Below are positions 30,441 through 48,303 of a DNA stretch of 64,000 bases, piece after piece. The notes under the pieces were generated by a model, which searched no databases, had not been told where the DNA came from, and worked only from the letters and a program-made list of their open reading frames with translations. Made by a program: the position numbers and the translations under genes. The stretch spans positions 1-64,000 of the forward strand of contig JAFDWN010000028.1 in NCBI GenBank assembly GCA_018268465.1, given 5' to 3'. Origin of the DNA: Actinomycetota bacterium. Its GTDB lineage: Bacteria; Actinomycetota; Actinomycetes; Mycobacteriales; Mycobacteriaceae. Positions within the stretch are counted from its first letter, which is position 1; each line of letters opens with the position of its first letter.

Positions 30441-33400
30441 ATGACCCTCGTACCCACGTCGACCCTGCGGCCCGCGTCCCGATATTCCTGGGTTCCCGCG
30501 GCGGCAGGCTGGACCGTCGGGATCATCGCGACGTTGTCGCTGATCGCGAGCGTGTCGCCGCTGGTGCGCCTGATCATCCGTGTGCCGCGCGAGTTCGTCA
30601 ACGACTACCTGTTCAATTTCCCCGACACCAGCTTCGCGTGGGCGTTCGTGCTGGTCCTGCTGGCTGCGGCCCTGGCGGCCCGCAAACGCATCGCGTGGTG
30701 GATCCTCGTGGGCTACATGGTCGCCGCGATCGGCTGGAACGTCGTCGACCTCGTGACCGGCGGCGACACGGTCGTGGAGGACGTCGGCGAGGTCATCGGG
30801 TTGGTCTTCCACGTCGCGTCCGTCGTGTTCCTCGTCCTGGCGCGCAAGGAATTCTGGGCGAAGGTCCGCCGCGGCGCGCTGGTCAAGGCCGCGGTGGTGC
30901 TCGTGGCGGCCATGGCCATCGGCACCCTGGTCGGCTGGGGGCTGCTCGAACTGTTCCCGGGCACCCTGGCCCGCGACGACCGCTTCCTCTACGCACTCAA
31001 CCGGGTGAGCGCCTTCGCGGGCGCCGACTCCGACATCTTCTCGGGTCATCCGCATGTGCTGGTCAACGCGCTGCTGGGGCTGTTCGGTGCGCTGGCGCTG
31101 ATGGTCGCGGCGATCGTGCTGTTCCAATCGCAACGCGCCGACAACGCGCTGACCGGCGAGGACGAATCCGCGATTCGGGGACTGCTGGAGCAGTACGGGA
31201 AGAACGACTCGCTGGGCTACTTCGCCACCCGCCGCGACAAGTCGGTGGTGTTCGCCCCCAACGGCCGCGCGGCGATCACCTACCGCGTGGAGGTCGGGGT
31301 GTGCCTGGCCAGCGGCGACCCCGTCGGCGATCCCAAGTCCTGGCCGCAGGCGATCGAAGCGTGGCTGCAGCTGTGCCAGGAGTACGGCTGGGCGCCGGGG
31401 GTGATGGGGGCGAGTTCGGCCGCGGCCCAGACCTTCCGCGAGGCCGGGCTCAACGCCCTGCAGCTCGGCGACGAGGCGATCCTCTACCCGGACAGATTCC
31501 GACTGACCGGACCCGATATGCGCGCGGTGCGCCAAGCCGTGACCCGCGCCCGCAGGTCCGGCCTGTCCGTGCGGCTGCGCCGGCACCGCGACCTGCCCCC
31601 CGAGGAGATGGCCGCGGTGATCAAGCGCGCCGACGCCTGGCGCGACACCGAGACCGAGCGGGGGTTCTCGATGGCGCTGGGCCGGCTCGGTGACAGCGCG
31701 GACGGGGACTGCCTGCTGGTGGAGGCGGTGAGCACCGGCGGGCAGGAGCGAAGCGACTCGGGGATCAGCACCGGCGGGCAGGAGCGAAGCGACTCGGGGA
31801 TCAGCACCGGCGGGCAGGAGCGAAGCGACTCGGGGATGAGTCCCGGCGGGGAGGTGGTCGCGATGCTCTCACTGGTGCCGTGGGGCAGCAACGGCCTGTC
31901 GCTGGACCTCATGCGCCGCTCACCGCAATCGCCGAACGGCACCATCGAGCTGATGGTCAGCGAGCTGGTCCAGCAGGCCGAGGACATCGGCGTCAGTCGC
32001 GTCTCACTGAATTTCGCGATGTTCCGTTCCGCCTTCGAGCAGGGTGCGCAACTGGGCGCCGGTCCGATCGCGCGCCTCTGGCGCAGCCTGCTGGTGTTCT
32101 TCTCCCGCTGGTGGCAGCTGGAAACCCTGTACCGGTCGAATATGAAGTACCAGCCGCAGTGGGTGCCGCGCTACGCCTGCTACGAGGACGCCCGGCTCGT
32201 CCCCCGCGTCGGTGTCGCCTCGGTGATCGCCGAAGGCTTCCTGATACTGCCCTTCTCACGACGCACCAGACAGCACACCGGCCACCACTCCGCCGTCCCC
32301 CGCGACGTCGTGGACACCGGAGTGCTGCATGCCGACGGCAGCGCCCCCGACGTCGAAGACTTCAGGGCCGAGGCGGAGGACGCCGAAAACGGTGGGCGCC
32401 TGCCCGAACAGGTGCGGGTCCGGATGGCCAAACTGCGGGCTCTGCAGGCCGACGGCGTCGACGCCTACCCGGTCGGCCGGCCACCCAGCCACACCATCGC
32501 CCAGGCCGTGGACGCGGCCGACGACGTGGAGCTCACCGTCGCCGGCCGGGTGCTGCGCATCCGCGACTACGGCGGTGTGCTGTTCGCCCAGCTGCGGGAC
32601 TGGTCGGGCGAGGTGCAGCTCCTGCTCGACAATTCACTGCTGCGGCAGGGCGCCACCGCCGATTTCACCGCGGCCATCGACCTGGGCGACTTGCTCGAGG
32701 CGACGGGGCGGATGGGTTACAGCAACAAGGGCACACGCTCGCTGCTCGTGCACAGTTGGCGGTTGACGGGTAAGTGCCTGCGTCCCCTGCCCGATAAATG
32801 GAAGGGTCTGACGGATCCGGAAGCCCGGGTGCGCACCCGCTACGTCGACCTTGCGATCAACACCGAGGCACGCGAGCTGATCACCGCCCGCAGCCGGGTG
32901 CTGCACGCGATCCGCGAAACCCTGTTCGGCAAGGGATTCCTGGAGGTCGAGACGCCCATCCTGCAGCAGATCCACGGCGGTGCCAACGCCCGCCCGTTCG
33001 TCACCCACATCAATGCCTACGACCTGGACCTCTACCTGCGCATCGCACCAGAGCTCTACCTCAAGCGGCTGTGCGTCGGCGGCGTCGAGCGGGTCTTCGA
33101 GCTGGGCCGCGCGTTCCGGAACGAGGGGGTGGATTTCTCCCACAACCCGGAGTTCACGCTGCTGGAGGCGTATCAGGCACACGCCGACTACGACGTCTGG
33201 CTGCACGGCTGCCGCGAACTGATCCAGAATGCGGCCGAGGCCGCCAACGGTGCGCAGGTGGTCATGCGGCCCGGCCCGGACGGCACCCTCGAACCCGTCG
33301 ACATCTCCGGCCAATGGACCGTCAAGACGGTGCACGGCGCGGTCTCGGAGGCGCTGGGCGAGGAGATCGGGCCCGAGACGGACGTCGCGACTCTGCGCAG

Positions 33401-35353: not shown

Positions 35354-36472
35354 TCAGTAGTCGGATTCGGCGGCCAGGAGTTCGGCGAGGAACGCGTCGC
35401 GGGCCGGCCGGCGCAGCCGGGTGCGCGCGAACATTCTGACCCGTTCACGCATCTGCGGCGTCTCCGCCGGCGCGGCGTCGGCTCCCACCGCGAGGTCGGT
35501 GCCGGCCCAATTCTGATTCCACGCACCGCTTTCGGTCAGGGGTTCGCCGGAACCGTCGACGAGGCCGACGGTGGCGCGGCCCGCGGCGTCGAGCGCACCG
35601 GTGCCCGCTACGGCGCCACACCGCAGGCGCACCGCCACACCCGCCGCAGACGGTGCACCCGTCACCGCGACCCGCACCCGCGCGACGGCGTGACCGCCCG
35701 CGGGCAGCACCTCCCACGCGACGGTGTCCTCCGCGGCGTCGAACACCCCCGGGGCGACCGCGGCCCACCGGATCGACGCCGCGCCGGTAGCCACCGCCAC
35801 CACCGGGTCGCGAGACGGATCCGGGCCCGCCGCCAGCGCGTAGTCGTCGCGGCGGCGGATCGGGTCACCCGTGGTCGCCGGACCGTCCGGCCAGCCGGGC
35901 ACACCGGTGTCGGCGGCCATCTGCGCACAGGCGCGAGCCAGCCGCGCAACCCGTTCGTCGGGCGCCGCCAGCAAGGACGTCAGCGCCGCGCCGTGCGGGG
36001 CGAGGAGAGCAGCGACCTCCGAATCGAGGGTGTCGTCGGTGAAGTAGTCCTCGGCCGCGGCGGTCAGCAACGCGACTTCACCGTCGAGCACCGCGGGGTC
36101 CAGCGCGGCGATCGCGTCCCGCTCGCTGGCGGGCCACCACCTGCGCAGCCAGTGGCCCAGGGCCAGCCGCCGCAGCGGCACGACTGCCGCCGCGCTGCTG
36201 TCCACCCCGTCGAGGTCGACGGTGGCTCCGTCGTGCGCGTCGCGCCCGGTCAGCGCCGAGACGAGCGCGATATGGCCGGGTTCGCCGACCATCTGCCACA
36301 ACCAGTCCGCGCGGGCGGCATCGGTGAAGGTGATCTGGGTGGCCGACGCGCCGGCGGGGTCGTCGACGGTCCAGGACAGCACGGCCCCGCTCACTTCCAG
36401 CACCGCCAGCAGCGGCGGCGGGGCGGCCACCGGACCAGTGCTCCATAGTCCGGAGACGGCGTGCAGCTTCAT
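35354..36472 (-). CDS. CHAT-cassette protein D, unrecognised family
   Basis: 372 residues. I see no enzymatic motif. The N-terminal 120 residues look beta-rich (AVLEVSGAVLSWTVDD, ATQITFTD); the middle is helical (VALLTAAAEDYF, VAALLAPHGAALTSLLAAPD, VARLARACAQMAAD); and the final 170 residues again beta (VAWEVLPAGGHAVARVRVAV, VAVRLRCGAVAGTG), ending in a basic helix (RVRMFARTRLRRPARDAFLAELL). It overlaps the stop of the preceding gene by 4 nt, so the two are coupled. It is a candidate regulatory partner or target of the CHAT protease. No membrane segments or signal peptide. Confidence 0.75.
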   Translation of the reverse strand: MKLHAVSGLWSTGPVAAPPPLLAVLEVSGAVLSWTVDDPAGASATQITFTDAARADWLWQMVGEPGHIALVSALTGRDAHDGATVDLDGVDSSAAAVVPLRRLALGHWLRRWWPASERDAIAALDPAVLDGEVALLTAAAEDYFTDDTLDSEVAALLAPHGAALTSLLAAPDERVARLARACAQMAADTGVPGWPDGPATTGDPIRRRDDYALAAGPDPSRDPVVAVATGAASIRWAAVAPGVFDAAEDTVAWEVLPAGGHAVARVRVAVTGAPSAAGVAVRLRCGAVAGTGALDAAGRATVGLVDGSGEPLTESGAWNQNWAGTDLAVGADAAPAETPQMRERVRMFARTRLRRPARDAFLAELLAAESDY

Positions 36473-37797
36473 CCGGCGGCCTGCGTTTCCAGCATCGACT
36501 TGATCTGCTGGCGGTGGTCCAGGCTGACCGAACGGGCGACGCCTTCGAGCAGGGACCGCATGTCGTCGACGTCGCCGCACGACTCCTGCCACACGTCGCG
36601 GCCGTGCAGCCGCGCCCACAGCCGGTTCAGATACGGGCGGCTGAACGCGGCCAGGTCGTCGATCACCTGGCGCTGTCGCGGATGCAGCGGTCCGCCGCCG
36701 GCCAGGTAGCGGCAGGCGTGCAGAACGTAAGCCTCCTTGCGGAGCCTGGCCTGGATCTGGCGGGCCAAATGGAAGCGCCCGGACGCGGCGTCGGCCAGTG
36801 GTGCCAGGTCGACGGCGACCTCGATCCCGGCGACAAGGGTGGCCTGGGTGTCCTCGGCGATCAAACCCCACGGTGCGCAGGCGCGGTCCACCTCTTCGGC
36901 GCACAGCAGTGGGATGTCGGGGAGTTCGTCGCGGTCCAGGGCCCTGCGCAGGGTGGCCCGCACCCGATCGGCGACCGCGCGGTCCAGCGGCCGATTCCCC
37001 TCGGTGACCCCCGCAACCGGCGGAGGACGTTGCGGCGCAACGGAACTGAGTCCGAGGTCGACGACCGACCAGGGCATCGCCTGGGGGTCGACGCGGGCCA
37101 GGGCACCGAGGTTGTACGGTGCGGCGTCAGCGATCAGCACCAACCAGGCCCGCTGCCGCGCTGTCGCGCCGCGATGGCCGTCGGCGTCGCCGAGGACGGT
37201 GCTCAGCCCGGCAAGAAACGGGGCGCTGGTCGCGGCGCCGGGCCGCACGTCGCGCCAGCTGTGCGCGAGTTGTTCGGTCAGCGTGGCCACCACGCGCGGA
37301 TCGCCCAGATGCCGGTCCAGCACCTCGACGGCGGTGCGGTCGCGGTCCCCGTGGACATGGCGCAGCACCGAGACCGCCGTCTGTTCACCGTCGCGGCCCG
37401 GCCGCCCCCGCGTCACCGCAAGTTCGAAGGACACCGGGAAGTACAGCTCCTGGGCATTGCCCGTGGCAATGCGGAGCCGGCGCCGCTGCGTCTTCAGCAG
37501 AACGAACCACGCTGCCGCGGAACGCAATTGATCGGCGCAGTCGGCGATCGCCCGGCACATGGCGGCCGCCACGTCGGCGGTGACGATCGGCGCCGAGTAC
37601 TGCGGGTTGGCCCGCAGCCGAAGCACCAGCGGGTCGATGATGCGTTTGACGGTGCGGCGCAACGGCGCACCGTCCTCGCCGCTGAGCACCTCGACACCCG
37701 GCCCGATGGCCCGCCACGCCCGGTCGATCACCGCCCGCCGCGGATGAGCCGGTGAGGTGGCCGCGGCCGGCGCCGCCGCGTCGGAGCCCGAACTCAT
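36469..37797 (-). CDS. CHAT-cassette protein C, unrecognised family
   Basis: 442 residues, mostly helical by composition (RTVKRIIDPLVLRLRAN, AAMCRAIADCADQLRSAAAW, TVLGDADGHRGATARQRAW, RKEAYVLHACRYLAGG). No known catalytic motif, signal peptide or membrane segment. It contains an acidic/arginine pattern unlike DNA-binding folds that I know. ATG 37797 has its own leaderless -10 and a 74-bp gap after the CHAT gene, so it and protein D can be expressed apart from the TPR-CHAT pair. Its role is unknown; being a CHAT substrate is one possibility. Confidence 0.75.
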   Translation of the reverse strand: MSSGSDAAAPAAATSPAHPRRAVIDRAWRAIGPGVEVLSGEDGAPLRRTVKRIIDPLVLRLRANPQYSAPIVTADVAAAMCRAIADCADQLRSAAAWFVLLKTQRRRLRIATGNAQELYFPVSFELAVTRGRPGRDGEQTAVSVLRHVHGDRDRTAVEVLDRHLGDPRVVATLTEQLAHSWRDVRPGAATSAPFLAGLSTVLGDADGHRGATARQRAWLVLIADAAPYNLGALARVDPQAMPWSVVDLGLSSVAPQRPPPVAGVTEGNRPLDRAVADRVRATLRRALDRDELPDIPLLCAEEVDRACAPWGLIAEDTQATLVAGIEVAVDLAPLADAASGRFHLARQIQARLRKEAYVLHACRYLAGGGPLHPRQRQVIDDLAAFSRPYLNRLWARLHGRDVWQESCGDVDDMRSLLEGVARSVSLDHRQQIKSMLETQAAG

Positions 37798-37803
37798 CGG
37801 CAC

Positions 37804-37809
37804 AGGATA
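37804..37809 (-). promoter_or_regulatory. -10 element of leaderless protein C transcript
   Basis: TATCCT on the minus strand ends 6 nt before the ATG at 37797. It would allow the second half of the CHAT cassette to be expressed independently. Confidence 0.5.
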
Positions 37810-37871
37810 CGGTGGGCGACACGGAACTCCGGTGGGCCGTTCCGGGCCGCGGCGACTCCGGCGACGGACGT

Positions 37872-39188
37872 TCACCGGGCACCGTCGACGGTGAACGTGG
37901 CCAGCGCGGCCCAGTACAGCGGGCTGGCGGCCGGTGCACCCGCGCGCCACCGCCGCATCTGCGCACGCTGCCAGCGGTTCACCGCGCACCCGGCGTCCTC
38001 GGCATCGTGCGCCCGGTCGACGGCGATGACGGTGTCGGCCATGGGATCGGTCGACGCGTCGGCGCGGGGCCCGAAACGGCGGATCCCCGCGGTGGTGACG
38101 AGCGACCACAAGGTGGCGGTGACGACCAGGGCGCCGCCCAGTACCGCCGCGGCCACCAGCCCGGTCGCCTCGTCGAATCGGTAGTCACCGCCGGATGCAC
38201 AGGCCAGCAGCGCGACCCGCGGCGGCATGGTGACACCGGCCGCGATCAGATCGGCGGCGCGCACGGGAGCCTCGGCGGCCAGATGCAGCGCGGCGCGATC
38301 GGCGCGCCCATGGCGGTCGTCGGCGGCGGTCACGTGCCCGACGAAGAGCATTCGCCCGGTCGGCAGGCCGAGTTGTCGTGTCAGCCAGGGGCCGTCGACG
38401 TCGGTGCGCCGGAACAACTCTAGCGGTGACGTCACCCGCGGGCACACCTCGCGCTCGCGCATCACCGCGGCGAAGTGCCTCACCAGCGGCGACTCCTGCG
38501 ATTGGCGTCCGAGGACCGAGCCGAGCGCGGAGTCCGGCCGCTGTCCGGGGATGCGCGGATCGAGCAGCAGTAGCGGCGGATCACCGTGCGGGCCCGTCCA
38601 CCGCGCCGGTGTGCGTGGCGCATTGGCGATATTCGGCGCGACCCCCATCAGCACATCGGCCAATTCCATCAAGCGGTAGCCCTCGGTCACGATGCCGATA
38701 TCGGCCAGCTGCCATGGGATCCGCGCGGGCGCGGTGCCGCTGGTGGTGCGCGCCTCGGCGGCGGCGCGCGACAGTTCGGCGGCGCTCGGCCCGCTCGTGG
38801 GCAGGGCCAGCAGACCCCACGGCACCCGTGCCAGCCGGGTGCTGGGGGTGACGAACAGCACCGCGCGCGGCGATGCCACACAGTCCAGGAGCAGATTCCA
38901 GGCCGGTCCGGCGATCAACGACACGCCCAGGATGTAGGCGACGGTCAGTTCGGTGTCGGGTGCGGCGAACGCGCCACGGGTCAGCGCCCGCTGCACCGCG
39001 TCGGTGCGGCTCTCCGCATCGCGCGGATCGGGCAGCGCGTCGTCCAGTTCGGCCAACGCGGCAAGCAGGATCGGCTCCTCGATCACCCACGTGACGGTGC
39101 GCGCCGGCTGCCCCACCACCCGCAGGCTCGCGTAGGTGGCCACGCCGACGTCGGCGTAGCGCAATACCAGGGTGAGCCGCTCGGTCAC
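37872..39188 (-). CDS. CHAT-domain (caspase-like) protease
   Basis: 438 residues. The C-terminal half is a CHAT domain: the predicted catalytic His285 is in MLFVGHV and Cys330 in LLACASGGD, 45 residues apart; both are followed by the typical LHLAAEAPVRAADLIAAG and GLVAAAVLGGALVVTATLWSL blocks. CHAT proteins are separase/caspase-clan cysteine proteases that in bacteria act in defence and regulated death. The N-terminal half is unassigned. GTG 39188 overlaps the TPR gene stop (GTGA), so the two are coupled. No transmembrane segments. Confidence 0.88.
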   Translation of the reverse strand: MTERLTLVLRYADVGVATYASLRVVGQPARTVTWVIEEPILLAALAELDDALPDPRDAESRTDAVQRALTRGAFAAPDTELTVAYILGVSLIAGPAWNLLLDCVASPRAVLFVTPSTRLARVPWGLLALPTSGPSAAELSRAAAEARTTSGTAPARIPWQLADIGIVTEGYRLMELADVLMGVAPNIANAPRTPARWTGPHGDPPLLLLDPRIPGQRPDSALGSVLGRQSQESPLVRHFAAVMREREVCPRVTSPLELFRRTDVDGPWLTRQLGLPTGRMLFVGHVTAADDRHGRADRAALHLAAEAPVRAADLIAAGVTMPPRVALLACASGGDYRFDEATGLVAAAVLGGALVVTATLWSLVTTAGIRRFGPRADASTDPMADTVIAVDRAHDAEDAGCAVNRWQRAQMRRWRAGAPAASPLYWAALATFTVDGAR

Positions 39189-40786
39189 GGCCACGTCGCC
39201 CACGCGGCACCGCGATCGGTGAGGTCGCGGCCGTACCGGTCGAACGCCAGCGCGCGGTACCGCTCGAGCACCGGTCCGCCGGCCGGGTCCATCCGCAACG
39301 GCGGCAGCGGGCCCAGGCGGGTCAACGGTCCGCCGTCGGGTGGGTGCGCCGCGGGGTGCAGTGGCACCGGCGCGGTCGCGGCGGAGGTCCACTCCCCCGG
39401 CCCGACCGACACCGGCTCTTCGTGGAAAGCACCACGGGCACTGTGGTATTCGATGAGCTCGCATAACACTGTCATGTCGCCCCATTCCCAGGTGGCGGCG
39501 AACGCACCGGCCAGCATGGGGGCGGAAACCCATGTCGCCCAGCGCATCCGGTCCTCCGCGTCGGCGATGGTGTACCGCACCGAATCGACGGCGAGCGCGG
39601 CGGGCACCTTGAGGTCGGCGGCCTGTTCCGATTTCGCTCGCGCGGCGGCACGGTTCGGGTCGGCCAGCGCGTCGGCACGCCAGATGCTGCCGAGGTGGTC
39701 GTCGAGGCGCGCGTACTGCAGCCAGCTGTGCCGCGCCGAGGCGTCCAGCTGCTCGCGCGCCTGCGCCACCAGTTCGACGGCGTCGGCGAACTCACCGCGG
39801 AACACCCGTATCCAGCTGCGCGCCAGCAGCACACGGTGGATGTGCAGCGGGCGGCCGACCTCACGCCAGTGCCTTTCGGCATGCCCGAAACACTCGTCGG
39901 CGTAGTCCAGCTCGCCGACCGCCATCCCCGTCAGCCCCAGATACAGCAAGCAACGGGATACCTCGTGCGCCCGCGCGTAGTGTGCGATCGCCGGGTAGGC
40001 GTCGCGCACCAGCGCCTCGGCCCTCACGTGGTCACCGGTCAGCCAGCTCGCCGCGGCGCGTTCCAGACCGGTTCTGGCGACAGCCAGTTGCCAGCCCCGC
40101 GCCTCGGCGCGCGCACCGGCCCGGCGCAACCAGGGTTCGGCCTCGGCCAGCCGTCCGGTCTCCACGCAGAACCTGCCGTATGCGGTGGCGGTGGTGACGT
40201 GGCGATGGTCGGTGGATTCCAGGCCGTCGCCCGGCCGGTCGACAGATTCGATCACTTTCTCCCACAACGGAACCGACTGTTCGTATAGATCGTCGTCACA
40301 CAGCGCCGTCGCACACAGGACGTGCGCGCGGGTGATCAGGTCATCGTGTTCGCCCGCGAGATCCGCGGGTCCCGGACCGGCGCGCAGCAGCGCTGCCAGC
40401 GCCGTCGCGGCCTCCTCGTGCGCTCCGCGCGCGGCCGCGAGCCCGGCGTCGAGGAATGCCGCGCGCCGGGCGTAGCGGCACGTCATGTGGGTGATCTCCT
40501 TATGCGGCATGGTGACCCGGTCGGCAAGGTCGGGCAGGGTGCCGCCGAGAAACCGGGTGTAGACGCCCAGACAGTCGCGGATGCGGCGGATACATTCGGC
40601 GACACCGTCATCGGCGCCGCGCACGAGGTAGATCTCGCCGAGTTGGGCGAACACCTCGAGCATCAGGTCGTCGCGGTCGACGGCCTCGATGGCCGGGATG
40701 AGAGACACCAGCAGATCACGCGCTGCGGCCTCGTCGGCGGCGAACGCGAGGTGACGGGCGCGTTCCAGCTCGGCGGGGATCGTCAC
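39185..40786 (-). CDS. TPR-like helical repeat protein of the CHAT cassette
   Basis: 533 residues built largely from paired helices of TPR character, e.g. DLMLEVFAQLGEIYLVRG, HEEAATALAALLRAG, ATAYGRFCVETGRLAEAEPW, VSRCLLYLGLTGMAVGELDY and SWIRVFRGEFADAVELVAQA. The C-terminal 80 residues are Pro/Gly-rich. TPR modules fused or linked to CHAT domains act as sensor or regulator; here the two are separate adjacent genes. GTG 40786 is placed by the leaderless TATGAT. It is the first gene of the cassette. Confidence 0.82.
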   Translation of the reverse strand: MTIPAELERARHLAFAADEAAARDLLVSLIPAIEAVDRDDLMLEVFAQLGEIYLVRGADDGVAECIRRIRDCLGVYTRFLGGTLPDLADRVTMPHKEITHMTCRYARRAAFLDAGLAAARGAHEEAATALAALLRAGPGPADLAGEHDDLITRAHVLCATALCDDDLYEQSVPLWEKVIESVDRPGDGLESTDHRHVTTATAYGRFCVETGRLAEAEPWLRRAGARAEARGWQLAVARTGLERAAASWLTGDHVRAEALVRDAYPAIAHYARAHEVSRCLLYLGLTGMAVGELDYADECFGHAERHWREVGRPLHIHRVLLARSWIRVFRGEFADAVELVAQAREQLDASARHSWLQYARLDDHLGSIWRADALADPNRAAARAKSEQAADLKVPAALAVDSVRYTIADAEDRMRWATWVSAPMLAGAFAATWEWGDMTVLCELIEYHSARGAFHEEPVSVGPGEWTSAATAPVPLHPAAHPPDGGPLTRLGPLPPLRMDPAGGPVLERYRALAFDRYGRDLTDRGAAWATWP

Positions 40787-44677: not shown

Positions 44678-45292
44678 ATGTCTTCCCACCTGGAGATCTG
44701 GAGACCGTCAGGACGGGAGCTGATCAGTCTGAGCGGCCAGCGGGTGACGATCGGCAAGTCGTCGACCAATCTCGTGTCGCTCGACCACGACTCGACCGTC
44801 TCCCGCCTGCACGCCGTGTTGGAGAACCTCGGATTCGCCTGGTCGCTGCGCGATGTCGGCAGCCGCAACGGCACCTACGTCAACGGCGAGAAGATCACAC
44901 ACGAACGGGTTCTGCGGTCCGGTGACGAGGTGCGCGTCGGCAGTTCCCGGCTGGTCTTCTGGGAGGAGAAGCGCGCCGAGGACACCTCGCTGGGTGAGGC
45001 GACCGTGTCGGCTCAGCCCAGCCAGCTGCCACCGCGGCTGACACCGCGTGAACTCGACGTCCTGATGGCGTTGTGCCGGCCCCTGGTCTCCGACGCGCCG
45101 TTCCCCGAACCTGCGTCGGTGCGCCAACTCGCCGCCGAATTGGTGGTCACCGAGGCCGCCGTCAAACAGCATCTGCAGAACCTGTACGACAAGTTCACCG
45201 TCCCCACCGACGGTGACCGCCGGGTGCGGCTGGCCAACGAGGCCATCCGCCGCGGCGCGGTCACCCTGGCCATGCTGCGCGACCGCGGCTAG
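44678..45292 (+). CDS. FHA-domain protein with C-terminal winged helix
   Basis: 204 residues. The N-terminal FHA domain (about 5-95) keeps the phosphothreonine-binding GKSST, SRLHAV and SRNGTYVNG motif. Residues about 115-200 (RLTPRELDVLMALCRPLV, VVTEAAVKQHLQNLYDKFTV) look like a winged-helix or LuxR-like DNA-binding domain. So it may turn Ser/Thr phosphorylation into transcriptional control. The stop codon TAG shares a CTAG palindrome with the convergent kinase stop. A natural partner of that kinase. Confidence 0.85.
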   Translation: MSSHLEIWRPSGRELISLSGQRVTIGKSSTNLVSLDHDSTVSRLHAVLENLGFAWSLRDVGSRNGTYVNGEKITHERVLRSGDEVRVGSSRLVFWEEKRAEDTSLGEATVSAQPSQLPPRLTPRELDVLMALCRPLVSDAPFPEPASVRQLAAELVVTEAAVKQHLQNLYDKFTVPTDGDRRVRLANEAIRRGAVTLAMLRDRG

Positions 45293-48200
45293 CTGAAGTC
45301 CAGCGCCTCGATGGTCGGCACGGCACCTTCATGGGCGGGCCGGTTCGCCCCGCCGATGCAGTACACCGTCGTCCCGACCGCCGCGACGACCAGCGCGTGC
45401 CGCGGCGTGGGCAACGGTGCCAGCTCGGTCCAGGTGGCCTCGGCGATGTCGTACATCTCCACCGTGTCCAGGACCCGGGTGGGATCCTCCCCGCCGACGG
45501 CCACGATGCGACCGTCGACGTAGGCCGCCCCGTAGCTCCCGCGCGGAGTCGGCATGTCCACGAGCTTCACCCACTCCCCGGATGCCGGGTCGAACCGCTC
45601 GAACGCCGCGGAATTCCGGTCGGCGGACAGGAAGCGTCCGCCCACGGTGTAGACGTAGGTGCCGTCCGACACCGCGGCCAGGTGTTCACGCGGGGTCGGC
45701 AGGTCGGCGGCCTGCGTCCAGGATTCACCGTCGAACACCTCGGTCTGCGGAACGAGCTGTTTGTCGTGCTGACCGCCGACGACCACGAGTTTGTCCCCGA
45801 CGACCGCCGCGGCGGCGCCGGCCCGTGGGTGCGCCAGGCTCGGCAGCTCCGACCAGGTGCCGCCCGACAGCGCGAAGACCTTGTCCGAGGCGCCGGCGAT
45901 GTCGGCGCTGGCCCCGCCGATGACGACGACCTGGCCGCGGTAGGTGGTGGCGGTGGCGTGATGCAGCGGTATCGGCATCGACGGCTCCGATTGCCACTCG
46001 CCGGTCTGCGGGTCGTAACTCTCGACGGTGTCCAGTGCCTCCCCGTGGCGTAACCCGCCCATCACCCAGATCCGTCCGTCGAGCACCGTCCACGCCATCA
46101 TCAGCCGCGACGTCTGCGCGTCGGGCAACGACCGCCAGTGCGACGCCGGCTGCGGTTTGCGGGCCGCCAGTTTCAGCGATTCGGCCGACGACGTCGCCTG
46201 TGCGACGCCGGAGGCAGTGGACCCGCCGATCGCGTAGACGGTGTCGTCGATCGCCGCGACCGCCATCCCGTGCCGCCCCGCGCTCATACCCGGCAGACCG
46301 GTCCAGGTGAGGGTCGTCAGGTCGAGTGCCTCGACACTGTCGAGCGCGCGCCCGCCGGACATCCCGCCGACGGCAACCAGACGGCCGTCGGCGACCGCCG
46401 CCCCGAGATCGCTGCGCGCGTCGGGAAGGCCGGGCAGTGTGGTCCAGACGTCGGCGGCCGGATCGTAGGACTCGACCGTCGCGAGGTCGGAGGTGCCGTT
46501 GGTCCCGCCGACGGCGTACACCACCCGCCCGTCGGAGGCTCCGGCCACCATCTGCCGCGGCGTCGGCATATCGGCGCCCAGCCGCCAGGAGGCGCCGTCG
46601 AAGATCTCGGTGGTGGCCAGGGGCCTGCCGTTGGCACCGACCCCGCCCGCGACGATGATGCGGTCCCCGACGACCGCGGCCGCCGCGGCGGCGCGGGGTT
46701 GCAGCAGCGGGGGCAGCTCCACCCAGCGGCTGTTGACGACCCGCCACACCCGGTCGGTGGCTACGGAGGTGTCGGTGCCGTCGGCGCGCCAGCCGCCCAG
46801 GACGACGGGGTTGCCCTGCCAGGTGACGGCCATGGCGTGCTGGACGGGCACGGGGAGGTCGTCGCCGCCCTTCCAGTTGTCGATGATCGGGTCGTAACCC
46901 TCGTGCCGTGCGCTCAGGCGGCTATCGGCACCGATGCCGCCGAAGATCCAGATCGTGCCGTCGGCCTCGGTGGTCGCGGTGGCCGTGCGCGCGACGCGGG
47001 CGTTGGTGATCGGCCGCCAGCCGGCTTGGGTTTCGGCGGTGGGTTGAGCGGGATTGGCCGCGACCCCGGCGGGTTCGGCGCCGTTGCGTGTCGCAATGTA
47101 GTAGACGCTGCCGCCGATGAGGATGACGGCGACGACCGCGGCCAGGATGGCCGACAGCAACGCCCGGCGTCCGCTCTTGTGCGACGTGACGCGGGTCGGC
47201 TCGTCGGGCTCCCCTATCGGCACCGGTGCGGGCGGGGAGATCGGAGGCGGCGCGGGGTCTCGTTGTACCGGCGCGGGTCGCGGTTCGGAAATCGGTTGCG
47301 GCGCATCGGTATACATGAACGCGCTCGCCGGAATCGCTGCGGTGCCGTCCGCTTCCCCGGGTCCGGGGGCGACGTCGTTGATGGCCATCGAATCGGGCAG
47401 CAGCCCGTTGCGCCGCTGGACGGCCTGCAGGTCGTGGCCGAAGTCCGCCGCGGACCCCTGCCGTTCGGCCGGGTCCAGCGACATCGCCTTCTCGATCGCC
47501 GTGCACACATCGTGGGGGATGCCCAGCGTCCGCAGATCCGGGATCGGTGTCGAACTGATCCTCAGGTAGTGGGCGACGACCTCTTCACCGCTCTTGCGCT
47601 CGTGCGCGGCGGTGCCGGCGATCAGGGCGTAGATCGTGGCGCCCAGCGAGTACACGTCGGATTCCACGGTCGGTGGCGCCCCGGCAAGTACCTCGGGTGC
47701 GGTGTAGGCGATGGTGCCGGTGAAAAAGCCGGTGGCGGTTTCGTATCCGCCCGCGATCCGCGCGATCCCGAAATCACTCAGCTGGGGTTCGCCGTATTCG
47801 TTGACGAGCACATTGCCGGGTTTGATGTCGCGGTGCAGGGTGCCCGCCCGGTGCGCGGTCTCCAGCGCCCCGGCCAGTTTCACCCCGATGCGCAACGCGT
47901 CCGGCCAGGCGATCCGGCCCGATCGCCGCAATCGCTCGGCCAGGGACCCCGCCGGGTAGTACGGCATGACGATGTAGGGCCGGCGGCTCTCCGTCACACC
48001 GACCTGCAGGATGTTCATGATGTTCGGGTGGCCGGACAGGCCGCCCATCGCATACCCCTCGCGCAGGAAGCGTTCCTGGTTGTCGGTGCTCAGGTCGGAG
48101 GCGAGCACCTTGATCGCGACGCTTCGCCGCAGGGAGGTCTGATGACAGCGGAACACCACTCCCGCGCCGCCGTGGCCGACCTCCGCGGCGTCGACGAATC

Positions 48201-48303
48201 CGGCCGCCGCCAGCTCGGCAGCAATCCTGCTGTGCGGTGGGGGCGGGGTGGGATCTGCGGGCATTGTCGGCTGCGGCCCTCCAGTGTGATGCGGGTACGA
48301 CAC
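45289..48303 (-). CDS. transmembrane Ser/Thr protein kinase with 12 Kelch repeats
   Basis: 1004 residues. The N-terminal kinase domain (about 27-290) has GHGGAGVVF, catalytic Lys65 in VAIK, HRDIKPGN (Asp159) and DFG (177-179). It is followed by a Pro-rich linker, one membrane span (about 378-403), and an extracytoplasmic region of 12 Kelch motifs (GG pairs after WIF, VVL, IVA, YAV, VAV, YAI, then WVM, VVI, VVV, YTV, VAV, YCI). The second six repeat the first six in order, so the sensor probably has two six-bladed propellers. Such kinases are one-pass sensor kinases. GTG 48303. Confidence 0.9.
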   Translation of the reverse strand: MSYPHHTGGPQPTMPADPTPPPPHSRIAAELAAAGFVDAAEVGHGGAGVVFRCHQTSLRRSVAIKVLASDLSTDNQERFLREGYAMGGLSGHPNIMNILQVGVTESRRPYIVMPYYPAGSLAERLRRSGRIAWPDALRIGVKLAGALETAHRAGTLHRDIKPGNVLVNEYGEPQLSDFGIARIAGGYETATGFFTGTIAYTAPEVLAGAPPTVESDVYSLGATIYALIAGTAAHERKSGEEVVAHYLRISSTPIPDLRTLGIPHDVCTAIEKAMSLDPAERQGSAADFGHDLQAVQRRNGLLPDSMAINDVAPGPGEADGTAAIPASAFMYTDAPQPISEPRPAPVQRDPAPPPISPPAPVPIGEPDEPTRVTSHKSGRRALLSAILAAVVAVILIGGSVYYIATRNGAEPAGVAANPAQPTAETQAGWRPITNARVARTATATTEADGTIWIFGGIGADSRLSARHEGYDPIIDNWKGGDDLPVPVQHAMAVTWQGNPVVLGGWRADGTDTSVATDRVWRVVNSRWVELPPLLQPRAAAAAAVVGDRIIVAGGVGANGRPLATTEIFDGASWRLGADMPTPRQMVAGASDGRVVYAVGGTNGTSDLATVESYDPAADVWTTLPGLPDARSDLGAAVADGRLVAVGGMSGGRALDSVEALDLTTLTWTGLPGMSAGRHGMAVAAIDDTVYAIGGSTASGVAQATSSAESLKLAARKPQPASHWRSLPDAQTSRLMMAWTVLDGRIWVMGGLRHGEALDTVESYDPQTGEWQSEPSMPIPLHHATATTYRGQVVVIGGASADIAGASDKVFALSGGTWSELPSLAHPRAGAAAAVVGDKLVVVGGQHDKQLVPQTEVFDGESWTQAADLPTPREHLAAVSDGTYVYTVGGRFLSADRNSAAFERFDPASGEWVKLVDMPTPRGSYGAAYVDGRIVAVGGEDPTRVLDTVEMYDIAEATWTELAPLPTPRHALVVAAVGTTVYCIGGANRPAHEGAVPTIEALDFS

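Follow-up and report, generated by a model that had tools for sequence, protein, structure and literature searches.

The four genes described here, termed A to D, lie on the minus strand of a 64,000-nucleotide (nt) stretch of DNA (contig JAFDWN010000028.1, positions 1 to 64,000, assembly GCA_018268465.1), referred to below as the window. They encode a TPR protein (A), a CHAT protease of the caspase clan (B) and two proteins that match no known family (C and D). Their distribution strongly supports a functional module in which C and D belong to the CHAT gene. The set is a real and conserved module of actinobacteria with a protease of a known kind, and is apparently undescribed so far; no published report on it was found in the open-licence PubMed Central (PMC) literature. 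A tentative model, which falls somewhat short of being probable, is that of a split TPR–CHAT regulated-proteolysis module, in which A and B would be the protease, C and D its dedicated partners, and the linker of D the segment cut by B. A first-pass annotation made from the sequence had described the four minus-strand open reading frames, their lengths, both 4-nt overlaps and the His285 and Cys330 residues of B, all of which were confirmed:

39185..40786, minus strand: gene A, TPR protein of 533 residues with a GTG start, the probable sensor or scaffold arm of the protease.
37872..39188, minus strand: gene B, CHAT (caspase-clan) protease of 438 residues with a GTG start, overlapping A by 4 nt.
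38334..38336, minus strand: codon of the predicted catalytic His285 of B, context FVGHVTA.
38199..38201, minus strand: codon of the predicted catalytic Cys330 of B, context LLACASG.
36469..37797, minus strand: gene C, 442 residues with an ATG start, conserved, all-helical in the model, matching no known family.
35354..36472, minus strand: gene D, 372 residues with an ATG start, matching no known family, overlapping C by 4 nt.
35825..35857, minus strand: linker motif RRRDDYALAAG of D, residues 206–216, resembling an SsrA tag; proposed cleavage or docking site between A215 and G216.

The case for a module rests on co-inheritance. A scan of the genome collection yielded 126 related loci, and the 80 mycobacterial ones retained from it were compared. 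All four genes are together in 77 of these, and the other three (L070, L075 and L079) are cut by contig ends. At the level of the order, 298 genomes were examined, B by protein query and C and D by profile, and the genes were found in 48, 49 and 47 genomes, respectively. All 48 genomes with B are among the 49 with C, and 47 of them are in the D list; for the one left over, G252, a profile search of its fetched locus (L127) recovered the D gene, so that B, C and D are present in the same 48 genomes. The extra genome with C (G219) carries a copy broken over two frames beside a membrane-protein gene termed F, with no A, B or D. In a phylum-level sample of 396 genomes, 12 yielded C (one match, in G598, being weak and partial) and 13 yielded B, including a fragment in G320 and a weak partial match in G015. 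Loss also strikes the set, G219 retaining only the broken C beside F and G320 only the fragment of B, and no intact partner gene was found without a CHAT gene. The first-pass annotation had proposed C and D as partners of the CHAT protease and had regarded their widespread occurrence without it as evidence to the contrary; the opposite distribution was observed, and the proposed partnership is strongly supported.

The arrangement of the genes is likewise recurrent. Of 77 measured loci, 75 have an A/B overlap (39185–39188 in the window) of 4 or 10 nt, and the C/D overlap (36469–36472 in the window) is 4 nt in 73 of 74. The mycobacterial order is E, A, B, then F on the opposite strand, then C and D; it is exact in 69 of 80 loci, with minor differences or cut ends in the rest. 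Outside this set, 18 other loci from 17 genomes were compared, and C, D and B lie side by side in 17. Sixteen of these 17 non-mycobacterial-type loci are ordered C, D, (A), B, and one, L111, has the mycobacterial order E, fused A–B, C, D. A was recognised by profile in 15 of the 17; in L124 and L125 an open reading frame fills its place. The order C, D, A, B also appears in a Nocardia farcinica record (L145) and in two Streptomyces records (L146 and L147).

Two companion genes, E and F, had been overlooked in the first-pass annotation. E is present upstream of A in the window, and F, an antisense membrane-protein gene that occupies the B–C interval of 76 of 79 mycobacterial loci, is missing from the window as well as from L083, L100 and L108:

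40848..41312, minus strand: gene E, LpqH-like (19-kDa antigen family) lipoprotein of 154 residues, 61 base pairs (bp) upstream of A.
37798..37871, no strand: short B–C junction, the place of antisense gene F in most mycobacterial loci, without F here.

E matches PF05481 above the cut-off (E 2.7e-26) and the solved LpqH structure 7fds in the PDB (E 1.5e-11), and its sequence begins MNRVAAAVIGLAAGAAVLVGC, in which a lipobox was read by eye. It precedes A in 77 of the 80 mycobacterial loci; the three exceptions begin at a contig end. The distance to A is 55–111 bp in 76 of the 77 measured, with one at 283 bp. In L111, E lies upstream of the fused A–B gene, and in 6 of 6 Nocardia-type loci it is divergent beside C. 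The genome of the window holds only three PF05481 genes; E differs from LpqH itself as a separate paralogue tied to the module, an LpqH-type paralogue being located elsewhere (L167/L170). In groups f14 (g21 and g46) and f15, all 8 loci have F next to the set and E was not found in them, and neither E nor F was found in L112, L113, L146 and L147. Many loci, among them L031, L035 and others of slow-grower type, carry a short F of about 80–150 codons that retains only the first half of the membrane protein of 200–290 residues encoded elsewhere. The f15-type loci (L114, L116, L117, L126 and their kin) carry an extra divergent gene of about 420 residues between C and F, whose product is anchored and weakly beta-propeller-like, with pyrroloquinoline quinone–type matches below the cut-off.

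The protease arm is recognised through its homologues. The CHAT family model PF12770 matches 30 of 31 aligned B members at E≤0.1 (best 2.5e-18), the sole exception being the window copy, and the homologues in L031, L071, L116 and L123, two of which are non-mycobacterial, score above the curated cut-off. The window protein is 68% identical to that of L031. All 31 mycobacterial rows and all 22 diverse rows share GH285 and C330, and motif and spacing suggest that His285 and Cys330 would be the catalytic pair. B is assigned to the CHAT proteases because its homologues match the family and because this His and Cys are invariant; the earlier identification holds on these grounds, and not for the window copy by itself, which falls below Pfam detection. 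A is similarly assigned through homologues as a diverged TPR protein: TPR_12 matches the window copy only below threshold (E 0.01) and reaches 2.8e-19, above the cut-off, in L123, while TPR_MalT matches the L146 protein at 8.5e-10. A and B share a single open frame in five loci (L111, L112, L113, L128 and L146), which, together with the TPR matches of A homologues, provides a TPR array joined to CHAT as in Csx29-like proteases. In the window the two are separate overlapping genes, whose products would probably form one enzyme.

C and D had been described as lacking any recognised motif, a view upheld by the searches: neither matched a family in Pfam, NCBIfam or PADLOC at a meaningful level. 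Profiles of both, compared with solved chains that included the parts of Craspase, the type III-E protease complex discussed below, gave no related match; the D profile matched two designed helical proteins (E 0.0027 and 0.25). Fold comparison of the predicted models gave no clear match. The C model is mostly helical and of middling confidence, with a predicted local distance difference test score (pLDDT) of 73.9 and a predicted template-modelling score (pTM) of 0.50. In matched 31-row sets, C has the highest mean column identity (69%, compared to 68% for A, 65% for B and 57% for D), which would fit a central binding role.

The D model (pLDDT 91.6, pTM 0.88) consists of an N-terminal beta/helical part, a linker and a C-terminal beta-sandwich. 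Residues 201–203 and 205–213 have pLDDT values below 50, and the block 211–220 averages 51, so that the linker is predicted to be disordered. Within it lies the most conserved pentamer of the protein, ALAAG (A212–G216), with a conservation of 0.98 against a mean of 0.29 in 20 diverse rows, in which the other linker positions are mostly unconserved (0.01–0.4). Among mycobacterial D proteins, ALAAG is present in 71 of 75 and the longer DYALAAG in 68, the remaining four having ALVAG. The diverse D proteins have ALAAG in 19 of 20 and LAAG in all 20, with one TLAAG, and an aromatic residue precedes ALAAG in 18.

Based on these data, a simple model would place D as the substrate of B. A, probably with C, would receive a signal, perhaps from the envelope, as suggested by the linkage of lipoprotein E and membrane protein F. 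B, once switched on by the signal, would cleave the disordered segment that joins the two folded parts of D, with the invariant ALAA/G bond (A215/G216) as the likeliest site. The halves of D would then separate, and the N-terminal half would end in ALAA, like a tagged protein. The first-pass annotation had offered both partners as candidates for substrate, inhibitor or effector; the conserved motif in a disordered linker lends support to D as a substrate.

A precedent is provided by Craspase, the TPR–CHAT (Csx29)/Csx30 system of type III-E CRISPR (clustered regularly interspaced short palindromic repeats). According to PMC11106740, binding of a complex activates TPR–CHAT proteases, which then cleave their dedicated substrate, and Jc-Craspase cuts Csx30 between A434 and S435 (P4–P4′ AIAA/SSEK). 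Both systems combine TPR and CHAT with a His/Cys pair, encode a dedicated partner nearby and have a linker cut, putative in D, after Ala-Ala with a small residue next (AIAA/S in Jc-Csx30, as given there, and ALAA/G here). They differ in that A and B are separate genes in the window, in that C and D lack sequence matches to the Craspase parts, and in that the putative site is invariant in D and not in Csx30. No gRAMP/Cas7-11 or other Cas gene was found among 10 neighbouring proteins scanned with NCBIfam, CRISPR arrays not having been searched for; the earlier statement that no CRISPR genes are near holds for these 10 named neighbours.

Several observations weigh against the regulated-proteolysis model. 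At E≤1 the window copy of B had no match in Pfam, and when its whole genome was searched with PF12770, a different CHAT gene was retrieved and B was not. Profiles of B matched no CHAT structure among solved structures; when B was aligned by hhalign with the clear CHAT protein encoded in its own genome, the probability was 0.8%, no useful match, and MAFFT did not superpose the His and Cys motifs of the two. In most mycobacteria the antisense F separates A–B from C–D, which are therefore not one operon there, and L120, a second A–B pair in G021, lacks both C and D. According to PMC11106740, Craspase sites are not conserved and single substitutions around them leave cleavage intact, so that an invariant site is not predicted by the precedent and ALAAG could instead be a docking motif.

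The likeness of the D motif to an SsrA tag raises an alternative that we consider unlikely, in which D would be a clamp with a latent tag in its flexible hinge. An SsrA motif is silent inside a protein and is recognised by ClpXP at the C terminus, and LVA is a working engineered variant of the tag. A TPR–CHAT cut at ALAA/G would leave the N-terminal half of D with a ...DDYALAA C terminus, a copy of the tag and hence a Clp degron; ClpXP (or ClpC1P) would destroy that half, with or instead of its cargo, and B would thereby start the processive proteolysis of a regulator. All 22 genomes examined yielded a transfer-messenger RNA (tmRNA) tag, and the window organism's own, predicted by ARAGORN, is ADSNQRDYALAA, which resembles RRRDDYALAAG. 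As a background, 1307 called non-D proteins (468,987 residues) from the same loci were used, which are mutually related and not independent; [DE][YWF]ALAA occurs in none of them and in 0.28% of shuffled window D sequences, and DYALAAG is, as noted, widespread in mycobacterial D. The shorter [YWF]ALAA is far less distinctive, occurring 30 times in the background (ALAAG occurs 20 times), in 2.0% of the shuffles and in 22 of 78 C proteins, where it lies in a helix. Across eight lineages the D motif is nearer to the tag of its own lineage than to those of others (5.86 versus 5.10 of 9 positions; permutation 0.01), a comparison to be little trusted, since the lineages are few, Streptomyces was left out, one tag was used per lineage even where more than one occurs, and kinship was uncorrected, no tree being used. 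For g2 the tag used was HQREYALAA, with NQREYALAA and NQRDYALAA also seen, and for g21 RADFALAA, with RADYDLAA also seen. The aromatic residue agrees between D and tag in six of nine lineages (p 0.045) and differs in three (F vs Y, W, V), a value likewise little trusted because the Streptomyces tag is that of G320 and the D rows L146 and L147 come from another source. The likeness was spotted after the fact, and an internal tag would be inert until cut exactly. The same motif facts could be accommodated by a lock, which appears quite improbable: C (or A) would hold the ALAA segment of D at rest, and SsrA-tagged peptides from stalled ribosomes or overloaded Clp would compete for the site and free B, making the set a sensor of translation distress. 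C, as the most conserved of the four and without an enzyme signature, has features expected of a receptor; SsrA tags, however, end in a free carboxylate where the D motif continues with an invariant Gly.

The companions may point to an envelope-stress pathway, in which E and F would report the state of the envelope to A–D, or E would be regulated or processed by the set. This alternative, which is rather unlikely overall, draws on the close spacing of E and A across differing chromosomal sites, on the positions of E in L111 and the Nocardia-type loci, on the regular presence of F and on the small number of PF05481 genes in the window's genome. Against it stand the loci without E, or without both companions, and the absence of F from the window; moreover, E and F are across the membrane from A–D or of unproven topology. 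A further alternative is a module for anti-phage or other conflict (abortive infection), in which the CHAT protease would be the effector and its partners would be sensor and inhibitor. Such a defence role, raised in the first-pass annotation, is possible and distinctly doubtful. TPR–CHAT proteases act in type III-E CRISPR defence, according to PMC9729208 and PMC10028731. The set is patchily present, eight listed members of the genus being without it, and three of these eight retain the flanks as empty sites, in two with about 0.7 kb between the hydrolase gene and the next flank gene. Window-type flanks (LysX, UvrA or their neighbours) are found at 38 of 80 loci and none of them at 42, most of which share other flanks, presumably dnaX and aspC as read from sequence. 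A tree of 72 C proteins requires at least four changes of the site label, three of them forced by supported branches, a count that is approximate since short contigs were scored as 'other'. The set also occurs on large actinobacterial replicons, in 6 of 72,556 plasmid records. The defence role is nonetheless not supported: A–D matched nothing in PADLOC-DB 2.0.0 at E≤1, 10 homologues gave only two weak matches there (E 0.029 and 0.061), C was found in none of 50,697 phage records, no mobile or defence genes are among the 10 named neighbours, C and D are strongly conserved at conserved chromosomal sites, and the companions are of envelope type. The CATRA and VMAP/EACC1 ternary conflict systems of the Aravind group, made up of caspase, TPR and partner proteins, are likewise actinobacterial and multi-gene and combine a caspase-clan peptidase with partners (PMC7159879 and PMC8195603); no MoxR ATPase or vWA gene of the VMAP kind is among the 10 named neighbours, and C and D match no Pfam model.

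On one flank of the set, NCBIfam identifies LysX and a hydrolase-like gene; the other flank holds an unnamed gene, ABC-F, FHA, a PknB-like kinase and UvrA. Within lysX, an in-frame 36-bp tandem repeat (window 31731–31854, 3.4 copies) extends the protein by repeats. The PknB-like Ser/Thr kinase (window 45289–48303), which adjoins the FHA gene and UvrA, matches mutarotase/Kelch-type propeller models in its C-terminal half. Elsewhere in the genome, the second, clear CHAT gene (G000:C1:125743-126672; L170, 12235–13944; PF12770 E 5e-49) has an LpqH-type paralogue at a distance of about 5 kb and a metallo-beta-lactamase-fold gene nearby, and no A, B, C, D or F match was found in its surroundings.

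More generally, TPR–CHAT proteases are known mainly from one CRISPR subtype. The set described here represents a form free of CRISPR, in which the protease has two dedicated partners that match no known family; many mycobacteria carry it, as do Nocardia-type, Streptomyces and other actinobacteria. The proposed substrate, cut bond and consequence are concrete enough to be tested. If the unlikely reading of D as the carrier of a latent tag were true, the motif would be a natural 'protease-unmasked tag' selected across several actinobacterial families; it would connect caspase-like switching with the quality control exerted by tmRNA and Clp, and would suggest what the LpqH-family lipoprotein that travels with the module does.

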